From Rhodoferax ferrireducens (GTDB taxonomy: Bacteria; Pseudomonadota; Gammaproteobacteria; Burkholderiales; Burkholderiaceae_C), in contig NZ_QEII01000269.1 of assembly GCF_003347515.1 (NCBI RefSeq), positions 124,001 to 188,000 on the forward strand: a stretch of 64,000 nucleotides of DNA, written 5' to 3'. Below, piece by piece: positions 18,494 to 49,404 of the stretch (positions within the stretch are counted from its first letter, which is position 1; every line of letters starts with the position of its first letter). Below the pieces are notes generated by a model. The model was not told the DNA's origin, ran no database searches, and saw nothing but the letters and a program-made list of their open reading frames with translations. The position numbers were made by a program, and so were the translations under genes.

Positions 18494-18570
18494 GGTGATA
18501 TAGCTCAGTTGGTTAGAGCGCAGCATTCATAATGCTGATGTCGGTGGTTCAAATCCACCTATCACCACCA
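18494..18570 (+). tRNA. tRNA-Met (anticodon CAU)
   Basis: A 77-nt cloverleaf. Acceptor arms GGTGATA / TATCACC, D-arm with AGCTCAGTTGGTTAGAGC, anticodon stem CAGCA/TGCTG with loop TTCATAA (anticodon 18528-18530), T-arm GGTGG TTCAAAT CCACC, and an encoded CCA end. A CAU anticodon can also belong to the lysidine-modified tRNA-Ile2. The first acceptor pair G-C excludes the initiator type. The elongator Met assignment is the more likely one. Confidence 0.93.
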
Positions 18571-46595: not shown

Positions 46596-47735
46596 TCACG
46601 CTGCCCGCCGTGCCTTGACAGCCGCCGACAGCACCTCCAGCGACTCGCACGAATCATCCCAACCCAGGCAGGCGTCGGTGATGCTCTTGCCGTATTCCAG
46701 CTTCGTCGAGTCGTCCTTGCCCGGAGTGAACTTCTGGGCTCCAGCATGCAGATGGCTTTCCACCATCACGCCGAACACGCTTTTGGAACCACTGGCAATT
46801 TGGGCTGCAATGTCACGCGCCACGTCCAGCTGCTTCTCATACTGCTTGCTGCTGTTGGCGTGGCTGCAGTCCACCATCAGCGTGGCCGGCAGCTTGGCTT
46901 TTTCCAGGTCTTTGCAGGCGGCCGCCACGCTGGCGGCGTCGTAGTTGGGCGCCTTGCCTCCGCGCAGGATGACGTGGCAGTCCGGGTTGCCATTGGTTTG
47001 CACGATCGCCACCTGGCCATTTTTGTGCACCGACAAGAAGTGGTGTCCACCCGCGGCGGCCTGAATCGCGTCGGTGGCGATCTTGATGTTGCCGTCCGTG
47101 CCATTCTTGAAGCCGATTGGCGCCGACAGGCCGGACGCCAGTTCACGGTGCACCTGGCTCTCGGTGGTGCGCGCGCCAATCGCGCCCCAGGAGATCAAAT
47201 CGCCCAGGTACTGGGGAGAAATTACGTCCAGAAATTCGCTGCCGGCGGGCAGGCCCAGGCGGTTGATTTCGATCAGCAACTGGCGCGCGATGCGCAGGCC
47301 TTCGTCAATGCGGAAGCTTTCATCCAGGTAGGGGTCGTTGATCAGGCCTTTCCAGCCGACCGTGGTGCGTGGCTTCTCGAAATACACGCGCATCACGATC
47401 TCCAGCGTATCGGCGTATTTCTCGCGCTGCACCTTGAGCTGGCGGGCATAGTCCAGCGCGGCAGCCGGGTCGTGGATGGAGCACGGGCCAATCACGACCA
47501 GCAGGCGATCGTCCTTGCCCGCCATGATGTCGTGCACACGGTGGCGGGTGGCACTGATCAGCGACTCCACGGCCGTGCCGCGAATCGGAAAGAAACGGAT
47601 TAAGTGCTCGGGAGGGGGTAACACGGTGATGTCCTTGATGCGTTCGTCGTCGGTCTGGCTGGTGCGGTCGGTGGGGAGGGCGACGGGGTTCGCATACCAG
47701 GCATCGGGACTGGCGACAGTGGCTTTCGCATTCAT
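46596..47735 (-). CDS. aroG: 3-deoxy-7-phosphoheptulonate (DAHP) synthase, class I
   Basis: 379 residues, AroG/AroF/AroH type. Motifs are VVIGPCSIHDPAAALDYA, MRVYFEKPRTTVGWKG, LDVISPQYLGDLISWGAIGARTTESQVHRELASGLS and the metal and substrate segment VDCSHANS. It condenses PEP and erythrose-4-phosphate at the entry of the shikimate pathway. TAGGAGCC precedes the ATG. The leader contains an aromatic-rich ORF and a terminator, suggesting attenuation. Which aromatic amino acid inhibits the enzyme cannot be read from the sequence. Confidence 0.96.
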   Translation of the reverse strand: MNAKATVASPDAWYANPVALPTDRTSQTDDERIKDITVLPPPEHLIRFFPIRGTAVESLISATRHRVHDIMAGKDDRLLVVIGPCSIHDPAAALDYARQLKVQREKYADTLEIVMRVYFEKPRTTVGWKGLINDPYLDESFRIDEGLRIARQLLIEINRLGLPAGSEFLDVISPQYLGDLISWGAIGARTTESQVHRELASGLSAPIGFKNGTDGNIKIATDAIQAAAGGHHFLSVHKNGQVAIVQTNGNPDCHVILRGGKAPNYDAASVAAACKDLEKAKLPATLMVDCSHANSSKQYEKQLDVARDIAAQIASGSKSVFGVMVESHLHAGAQKFTPGKDDSTKLEYGKSITDACLGWDDSCESLEVLSAAVKARRAA

Positions 47736-47776: not shown

Positions 47777-47808
47777 AAAAAAAACCGCCGGGGGTGCCGG
47801 CGGTTTTT
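47777..47808 (-). terminator. Intrinsic terminator/attenuator in the aroG leader
   Basis: CCGCCGG (47785-47791) and CCGGCGG (47797-47803) form a 7-bp GC stem, extended by A-T pairs. On the minus strand it is followed by eight U. It lies 42 bases before the aroG ATG. A leader segment near 47851-47857 (minus strand CGGCGGT) is complementary to ACCGCCG at its 5' arm and could form an antiterminator. Confidence 0.85.
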
Positions 47809-47838
47809 GGAAGATCAGGACGTTTTTTTCAGGTACGT

Positions 47839-47907
47839 TCAGAACTCTCTACCGCCGCAGGCGCTTGAGAACCAAAAATAGCTAAAGAAAAAACGGGCCG
47901 AATTCAT
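47839..47907 (-). CDS. Putative aromatic leader peptide of aroG (22 residues)
   Basis: ATG at 47907, stop TGA at 47839-47841. The peptide starts MNSAR and contains FFFSYFWF at residues 6-13, that is five Phe, one Tyr and one Trp in eight codons. This composition and the position just upstream of a terminator are the classical marks of amino-acid attenuation. No convincing Shine-Dalgarno precedes the ATG, which is the main weakness of the call. Confidence 0.72.
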   Translation of the reverse strand: MNSARFFFSYFWFSSACGGREF

Positions 47908-47943
47908 GGTTCGAAATGTAGCACAGTCACACTTGGCGCACGC

Positions 47944-49404
47944 TTACGCCGTACCGCCGACGGTCAGGCCATCGATGCGCAGGGTGGGTTGACCCACGCC
48001 CACCGGCACGCTCTGGCCTTCCTTGCCGCAGGTGCCGACGCCGCTGTCGAGCTTCATGTCCGTGCCGATCATGCTCACATGCTTGAGACACTCCGGGCCG
48101 CTGCCGACAAGGGTGGCGCCCTTGACGGGGTACAGAATCTTGCCGTTCTCCACCCAATACGCCTGGCTGGCCGAGAACACAAACTTGCCCGAGGTGATGT
48201 CCACCTGACCCCCGCCGAAGTTGGTGGCGTACAGGCCCTTCTTGATGCTGGCCACGATCTCCTCCGGCGACTTGTCGCCCGCCAGCATGTAGGTGTTGGT
48301 CATGCGCGGCATCGGCACATGGGCATAGCTCTCACGGCGTCCATTGCCCGTGGGCGGTACACCCATCAGGCGGGCATTCATGGCGTCCTGGATATAGCCT
48401 TTGAGAATGCCGTCCTCGATCAGCACATTGCGCTGGCTGGTATTGCCTTCGTCATCCACATTGAGCGAGCCACGGCGGTCAGCCAGGGTGCCATCGTCCA
48501 GCACCGTGACGCCTTTGGCGGCCACGCGTTGTCCGATGCGTCCGCTGAAGGCGCTGGAGCCCTTGCGGTTGAAATCGCCTTCCAGCCCGTGACCGATGGC
48601 CTCGTGCAACAAAATGCCGGGCCAGCCGGGGCCGAGCACCACGGTCATGACGCCGGCGGGCGCCGGACGCGCGTCCAGGTTGGTGAGCGCCGCCTTGACG
48701 GCCTCATCGACGTATTGCTCGATCACGGCGTCGTCAAAATAAGCCAGCCCGAAACGCCCGCCGCCACCGGCCGATCCGACTTCACGGCGGCCTTTTTGTT
48801 CGGCGATGACGGTCACGCTCAGGCGCACCAGCGGCCGAACATCGGCGGCCAGCGTGCCATCGGCGCGCGCCACCATCACCACATCGTATTCACTGGCCAG
48901 TCCGGCCATGACCTGCGCCACGCGCGGATCTTTGGCCCGCGCCAACTGCTCGACCTTTTCCAGCAGCTTGACCTTGGTCGTGCTGTCCAATGTCGCAATC
49001 GGGTCCACCCCCTGGTACAGCGAGCGCGCAGACGCTATCTTTTTAGAAGCTGCCTTCGTCCGTCCTGCCTGCGCCACGGACGAGATGGACCGAACCGTGC
49101 GGGCCGCGTCCAGCAGCGAGGCCTCGGAGATGTCGTCCGAGTAGGCAAACGCCGTTTTCTCGCCGCTGACCGCGCGCACGCCGACGCCCTGGTCGATGCT
49201 GAAGGAGCCGGTTTTGACAATGCCCTCTTCCAGGCTCCAGCCCTCAGAGCGCGTGTACTGGAAGTACAGGTCCGCCTCGTCGACCCGGTGCGCCTTGATT
49301 TCATTCAGGGCGCGGCTCAGGTGGGATTCATCCAGCCCAAACGGGGTGAGCAACAGGGACTTGGCAATGGCCAAGCGTTCAAGTGTGGGTTCGCGAGAGA
49401 TCAT
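47944..49404 (-). CDS. tldD: Metalloprotease TldD
   Basis: 486 residues. The zinc motif region is GWPGILLHEAIGHGLEGDFNRKGSSAFSGRIGQRV (HExxxH as HEAIGH), followed by LADRRGSLNVDDEGNTSQRN and a C-terminal beta-rich domain. TldD works with TldE/PmbA in peptide processing (microcin maturation, CcdA degradation in E. coli). A linker AASKKIASA near residue 120 is encoded by DNA resembling the interspersed repeat. It lies upstream of aroG on the same strand. Confidence 0.95.
   Translation of the reverse strand: MISREPTLERLAIAKSLLLTPFGLDESHLSRALNEIKAHRVDEADLYFQYTRSEGWSLEEGIVKTGSFSIDQGVGVRAVSGEKTAFAYSDDISEASLLDAARTVRSISSVAQAGRTKAASKKIASARSLYQGVDPIATLDSTTKVKLLEKVEQLARAKDPRVAQVMAGLASEYDVVMVARADGTLAADVRPLVRLSVTVIAEQKGRREVGSAGGGGRFGLAYFDDAVIEQYVDEAVKAALTNLDARPAPAGVMTVVLGPGWPGILLHEAIGHGLEGDFNRKGSSAFSGRIGQRVAAKGVTVLDDGTLADRRGSLNVDDEGNTSQRNVLIEDGILKGYIQDAMNARLMGVPPTGNGRRESYAHVPMPRMTNTYMLAGDKSPEEIVASIKKGLYATNFGGGQVDITSGKFVFSASQAYWVENGKILYPVKGATLVGSGPECLKHVSMIGTDMKLDSGVGTCGKEGQSVPVGVGQPTLRIDGLTVGGTA

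Follow-up and report, generated by a model that had tools for sequence, protein, structure and literature searches.

A conserved, probably leaderless candidate attenuator rich in aromatic codons ahead of a DAHP synthase gene in Rhodoferax ferrireducens and its relatives

The flux into every branch of aromatic synthesis is fixed at DAHP synthase. In the pheA and pheST leaders of enteric bacteria, a Phe-rich leader peptide and a terminator precede the gene, and expression follows a stalled-ribosome logic. The multivalent branched-chain leader of ilvGMEDA contains codons for several end products. Attenuation of pheA is described for gammaproteobacteria in a regulon study; in the sections drawn on here, trp and pheA are the only cases given for attenuation, and TyrR regulons of gammaproteobacteria are reconstructed (PMC5343134). 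In the passages cited, the leader RNA of S. meliloti trpL (rnTrpL/peTrpL), which is subject to attenuation, starts with the ATG of the leader ORF (PMC7298713), and the C. glutamicum ilvBNC leader is discussed as a leaderless mRNA (PMC11857589). Predicted regulatory RNAs are listed before DAHP synthase genes in Shewanella, as "Attenuator sensing tyr-tRNA" for aroF and "Possible transcription termination" for aroH (PMC2659441, Table 3), and in Vibrio, as a putative attenuator for aroAI-alpha-Y > tyrA (PMC1173090, Table 7). The sections of PMC2965389 drawn on here contain no aroG element. A search of the open-access literature, judged by titles, abstract openings, and term counts, found no paper that deals with a leader or attenuator of aroG in this group, and no description of the transcriptional control of DAHP synthase in Burkholderiales.

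The window, the whole 64-kb stretch of DNA analyzed here, contains a short ORF with a run of aromatic codons, followed by an intrinsic terminator, between tldD and a DAHP synthase gene (Table 1). The original prediction described a 22-codon minus-strand ORF with FFFSYFWF at residues 6–13, a terminator about 30 bases after its stop codon, and a CGGCGGT element complementary to ACCGCCG in the terminator 5′ arm, and all of these were confirmed; the distance from the stop codon is 30 bases if the A-tract is counted into the stem and 35 bases to CCGCC. The predicted short gap before aroG also stands, although the ATG lies 41 rather than 42 bases past the U-tract. CGGCGGT lies 14 bases past the first base of the last aromatic codon, and in the predicted antiterminator the GAGAG block partly pairs with the CTTCC region at 47813–47809. 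The terminator and antiterminator complementarities are mutually exclusive. tldD is not thought to be part of the system. The downstream gene encodes a type I DAHP synthase (TIGR00034, 536 bits); its score against the AroG equivalog NF006723 (550.4 bits) is below the cut-off of 568, so the AroG isozyme label is a loose one.

Table 1. Features of the leader region and its neighbours, in window coordinates
Feature	Position	Strand	Basis or remark
Leader peptide ORF MNSARFFFSYFWFSSACGGREF, 22 codons	47839..47907	minus	
Stall codons 6–13, F F F S Y F W F (TTT TTC TTT AGC TAT TTT TGG TTC)	47869..47892	minus	
Antiterminator 5′ arm CGGCGGT, within leader ORF	47851..47857	minus	Complement of terminator 5′ arm
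Purine block GAGAG, 3′ of antiterminator arm	47845..47849	minus	Predicted folds
Intrinsic terminator AAAAACCGCCGGCACCCCCGGCGGTTTTTTTT; 5′ arm common to antiterminator	47777..47808	minus	
aroG-type DAHP synthase, 379 aa, proposed controlled gene	46596..47735	minus	
aroG Shine-Dalgarno AGGAG	47747-47743	minus	
Extended -10 promoter element TGC-TACATT (predicted)	47915..47923	minus	7 bases before leader ATG
tldD, metallopeptidase, upstream neighbour	47944..49404	minus	Pfam PF01523/PF19289/PF19290

Like the pheA and pheST leaders, the aroG leader has Phe codons, a terminator and a proposed stalled-ribosome logic; unlike them, it precedes an enzyme of the common pathway, has mixed Phe/Tyr/Trp codons, and contains the antiterminator arm inside the ORF. 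It resembles ilvGMEDA and C. glutamicum ilvBNC in that one leader stands before an enzyme common to several end products, but it is aromatic instead of branched-chain and occurs in different bacteria. If the leader RNA starts at the leader ATG, as predicted, it would share this with S. meliloti trpL, which differs in being a Trp leader that controls trpE(G). The Shewanella and Vibrio elements likewise place a DAHP synthase gene behind a predicted cis-regulatory RNA, but they belong to other isozymes, are described for Tyr or for possible termination, and carry no leader peptide of the aroG kind in the descriptions cited (PMC2659441, PMC1173090). Rfam searches of the whole window at the gathering threshold return only a tRNA (18494–18567) and no T-box, riboswitch, or cis-regulatory family; below threshold, the best match upstream of aroG is sroD on the other strand (24.6 vs. 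50 bits), and the Phe_leader family RF01859 reaches 20.9 bits against a threshold of 55 (E 0.24). The mechanism is known, and its proposed place here, before DAHP synthase, is one for which the open-access literature searched gave no description.

Very probably, the leader controls the DAHP synthase gene by ribosome-mediated transcription attenuation, a reading of the sequences that is strongly supported by comparison (142 leaders, linkage to aroG, and the antiterminator core). The following course of events is inferred from these parts, including where the promoter lies, that ribosomes stall, when transcription ends or reads through, and which tRNAs are involved. RNA polymerase would start at or beside the leader AUG, and a ribosome would translate the aromatic run. 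When charged tRNA-Phe, tRNA-Tyr, or tRNA-Trp is scarce, the ribosome would stall in codons 6–13 with its front edge just before CGGCGGT; the freed CGGCGGT would pair with the emerging ACCGCCG to form the antiterminator, the terminator would not form, and aroG would be transcribed. When these tRNAs are charged, the ribosome would reach the stop codon and cover CGGCGGT and the GAGAG block; with CGGCGGT masked, ACCGCCGG would pair with CCGGCGGT, and transcription would end at the U-tract near 47777.

The run itself is unusual within the window: among 933 distinct mini-ORFs of 12–40 codons on both strands, only the leader, with seven, has at least five aromatic residues in any eight, and its conservation in relatives excludes a chance origin. 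Of the best 80 of 589 loci with AroG relatives, 79 have upstream sequence, and a script found an aromatic mini-ORF and terminator upstream of aroG in 65 of these; inspection by eye shows both in one more (L046), where the U-tract is broken. In all, 142 distinct leaders have an aromatic mini-ORF followed by a CCGCC/GGCGG terminator. They include leaders from Burkholderia and Caballeronia (MSAKFYFYFFWHLKPLADREG; L057, L076, L077), Rugamonas (MTCFFFTGYFYFSNSNPKAVE; L078), and Xanthomonas (MNANRSFYFWYYGFPMPLAEEGVRSP; L081). Excluded from this count are the locus without upstream sequence (L003), the 14 of these 79 loci in which the script parsed no leader (L046 among them), the window itself (L083), weak matches (L124–L130, L178–L181), duplicates (L071, L118), and two loci with either a terminator and no aromatic run (L176) or an aromatic run and an interrupted U-tract (L177). 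aroG lies directly downstream on the same strand in all 142 (135 if alignments starting inside the terminator are rejected; 142 with this rule relaxed), and tldD lies directly upstream in 62; the linkage to aroG holds whether or not tldD is the upstream gene. Alignment of the tldD–aroG gap bears out the expectation that the leader ORF, aromatic run, terminator, and complementary element are kept across several families.

Genome searches used two covariance models, the first built from 64 leaders and the second from 90 more diverse leaders taken in part from the first model's matches, and a strong copy was defined as a full-length match with E below 1e-5. Among 300 genomes drawn evenly from the order Burkholderiales, 77 in 14 families have a strong copy, and the two models give the same 77; with the second model, the weakest of these has an E of 1.3e-7, and the next match is partial (3.7e-6). 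A sample of 369 genomes drawn from the class adds four strong copies outside Burkholderiales (G311, G463, G571, G572) and also contains three in the window's own family. All 81 strong matches (the 77 and these four) adjoin aroG, which is independent evidence because AroG is not in the covariance model; their aromatic codons are part of the model and are not independent evidence in this sense. One of the 81 (L176) keeps the terminator and has no aromatic run. At looser cut-offs, matches occur in 138 of 300 genomes (first model, E 0.01), 110 of 300 (second model, E 0.001), and 37 of 369; the extra matches are mostly partial, ending on the terminator, and are left out of the counts. The window's own genome has a single strong match, the window leader (5.2e-22; the next is 0.036). 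A second DAHP synthase gene of this genome (L002; G000:C262:33744-34733), 58% identical, has no match to the leader model.

The leader is absent from certain aroG loci, and the weak matches excluded above have no AroG beside them. It is missing in Polynucleobacter and a relative (L034, L036, L037, L074), from two Cupriavidus aroG copies (L035, on chromosome 2, and L040), from Thauera, Rhodocyclus, Azoarcus, and a Rhodocyclaceae bin in Rhodocyclales (L054, L056, L062, L079), and from three further loci (L049, L051, L052). The Polynucleobacter group has a short tldD–aroG gap and a -10-like TTAAAAT near the aroG start. Those three loci and L080 come from MAGs titled Planctomycetota, Verrucomicrobiia, Gemmataceae, and Devosia, encode AroG proteins 64–70% identical to that of the window, and are likely mis-binned. 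Fifteen genomes without a strong match were checked; AroG is present in 11 (four families), and upstream of these 11 aroG genes there is no comparable leader but only chance mini-ORFs with 4–5 aromatic residues, some of which continue across the T-run of a different terminator.

Among the weaker matches L196–L203, three loci of family f28, namely L197 (G253), L200 (G283), and L201 (G117), carry an aromatic leader of another kind (MITFSAVFNAYFYWYRSS.../MVTFSVVYNVYFYWYRSS...), also with a terminator. It lies about 50–60 bases before an ORF of about 206 aa, which at L197 has no significant Pfam or NCBIfam match; a gene for a YlqF-like GTPase is located further downstream.

In 131 of 142 leaders, a complement of the terminator 5′ arm core lies within 26 bases past the last aromatic codon (5.6% in shuffles); the other 11 have no exact complement. 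Measured from the first base of that codon, the core is 8–23 bases away (mode 14), a spacing that would fit a stalled ribosome leaving the core just free, given an assumed footprint size. The core lies within the ORF in all 131 leaders, in phase 2 (85), phase 0 (39), or phase 1 (7); being read in all three frames, it is selected as RNA, not as peptide. GAG, GGG, or GGA follows within 8 bases of the core in 123 of 131, a raw count with no shuffle comparison. In 20 of 131, the stop codon is more than 25 bases beyond the core, and masking by a terminating ribosome is less obvious there.

Static folds, which use the same assumed footprint size, are consistent with the switch. When the ribosome occupies the last aromatic codon, the antiterminator forms in 123 of 142 nascent leaders and fails to form in 19; when it occupies the stop codon, the terminator forms in all 142. 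The median fold energies are -18.9 kcal/mol for the antiterminator and -18.5 kcal/mol for the terminator. Once the RNA is complete, the terminator has the lowest energy in 134 of 142 even when a ribosome is stalled, the window included; given this preference, the switch must be kinetic, decided as the RNA emerges.

In alignment A2, which like model R2 comprises 90 of the 142 leaders, hand-picked to reduce near-duplicates, the six core terminator pairs are formed in 98.9% of cells (96.7% in alignment A1) and the antiterminator helix in 92.2% (88.1% in A1). RNAalifold, applied to an automatic alignment of the loop region, gives just four consensus pairs. The variable base beside the core (leader/5′ arm/3′ arm) is C/G/C in 44, T/A/T in 43, and A/T/A in 2 of 131 leaders; at this position, 31 of 131 have no standard antiterminator pair and seven more have a G–U pair. 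None of 500 column shuffles reaches the covariation score of either helix, but one or two variable pairs account for this score, and pairs altered on both sides occur in unremarkable numbers. On the AroG tree, the leader variable base changes 16 times and the terminator 5′ arm five times. Five independent pairs of loci bear on the 5′ arm and leader base (on average, 3.4 agree, 0.0 oppose, and 1.5 are unchanged), with a median p of 0.125, and fewer than six independent pairs cannot reach 0.05; among independent pairs differing in the leader base, the 3′ arm also differs in 0.5 of 11. The compensatory changes anticipated in stem and antiterminator do exist, but the independent events are few and many leader changes are uncompensated. 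Because covariation is weak given the phylogeny, the case for the antiterminator rests on its invariant core and position.

In the window and in many other leaders, the promoter appears to lie immediately before the leader ORF. In 63 of 142, TGnTAnnnT ends 6–9 bases upstream of the leader start (0.59 in shuffles), and -10-like hexamers are concentrated at gaps of 6, 7, and 8 bases (20, 32, and 21, against 1.5, 1.8, and 1.6 expected). SD-like motifs before the leader are depleted (7 of 142 vs. 20.4 expected); by a laxer count, 123 of 142 aroG genes have such a motif before at least one in-frame start. Leaders of the Burkholderia and Massilia types have instead, by eye, a TATAA- or TATAG-like sequence about 35 bases upstream, and 40 of 142 leaders match neither promoter position under the criteria used. 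The placement of the -10 element and the scarcity of SD motifs suggest that the leader mRNA is leaderless and probably begins with its AUG, both in the window's clade and elsewhere; in the window, the transcript would start at the AUG or one base before.

It was proposed that the leader senses Phe, Tyr, and Trp together, which is plausible for the window but not general, as Trp codons are missing from 53 of 142 leaders and Phe dominates. The same attenuator could instead be mainly a sensor of Phe (and Tyr), with Trp minor or lineage-restricted, a serious alternative that we nonetheless consider somewhat doubtful. The aromatic runs of the 142 leaders contain 599 F, 254 Y, and 92 W, with Phe in 142, Tyr in 135, and Trp in 89 of them, and Phe accounts for five of the seven aromatic codons in the window run (the others being one Tyr and one Trp). 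Yet all three residues occur together in 87 of 142 leaders, and the Trp codon of the window stands second to last in the run, in a good position to expose the antiterminator. In trp leaders, moreover, a few Trp codons suffice for ribosome stalling. Codon choice in the leaders is also distinctive: Phe is encoded by TTT in 403 of 629 cases (64%), against 175 of 1012 (17%) in the corresponding aroG genes, and Tyr by TAT in 46% against 25% (aroG counts are from the 135 loci passing the stricter rule). Slower codons could sharpen the response; alternatively, the stretch rich in U may hold the leader free of structure.

Once terminated, the leader RNA, or else its peptide, might act in trans, as is reported for the S. 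meliloti trp leader, attenuation being just one of its functions. A leaderless small mRNA with a strong terminator is predicted here, like rnTrpL as described in the passages cited (PMC7298713). Beyond the aromatic run, however, the peptide differs between clades, and the reading frame across the RNA core varies; as a peptide it is therefore not conserved. We regard a trans function as improbable.

Control by a DNA-binding protein of the TyrR/PhhR type requires separate consideration. The window's genome encodes a TyrR/PhhR-like protein of 511 aa (L182:118-1653; HTH_50, E 5.7e-16), which scores 455 bits against NF008085, under the equivalog cut-off of 576; its genome is among the 15 of 100 Burkholderiales genomes with the TyrR helix-turn-helix domain PF18024. 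With the TyrR box consensus TGTAAA-N6-TTTACA and up to three mismatches, no site was found between 44326 and 52311. aroG of this genome has a probable attenuator and no visible TyrR box, yet a TyrR/PhhR-like regulator is encoded. The idea that the leader substitutes for an absent TyrR is weakened by this protein. The contrast with TyrR control drawn in the original prediction needs qualifying, since a TyrR/PhhR-like protein is encoded here, though no TyrR-box-like site lies near the promoter. That aroG is controlled mainly through such a protein, the leader being secondary or vestigial, seems quite improbable: the protein is present, and in the sections of PMC5343134 drawn on here the predicted regulator of aroG is TyrR in Vibrionales and TrpR in Pasteurellales, but the box is missing near aroG and the domain is found in a minority of the Burkholderiales sampled. 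Both controls could act jointly.

It is very unlikely indeed that the hairpin is only the tldD terminator or a constitutive attenuator with an incidental ORF, even though tldD ends at 47944, about 135 bases before it, since the leader tracks aroG and not tldD and this reading gives no role to the aromatic run and the antiterminator core.

The comparison points to a real, conserved, multi-aromatic, and probably leaderless attenuator of DAHP synthase. A wider proposal, which we offer tentatively and hold to be possible rather than probable, is an old attenuator family spanning the order, in which the mRNA would start from its own AUG and SD-free initiation would be part of the switch. The output of aroG would then reflect two things, how far the aromatic tRNAs are charged and how well the cell initiates on leaderless mRNA; Phe and Tyr codons ending in U would tune the sensor, and in several lineages (the Burkholderia and Massilia types) the promoter would have shifted about 35 bases upstream, leaving the rest in place. 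If this is true, every nascent leader needs to capture a ribosome at its first codon.

The attenuator reading would give aroG a concrete control logic, small enough for a 130-base reporter, and a parallel to the branched-chain leaders, with codons for multiple products ahead of a common enzyme. The leaders would also form a natural set of probably leaderless ORFs in which the initiation of leaderless mRNAs can be studied, and the attenuator may be of use in engineering these bacteria to produce aromatics.
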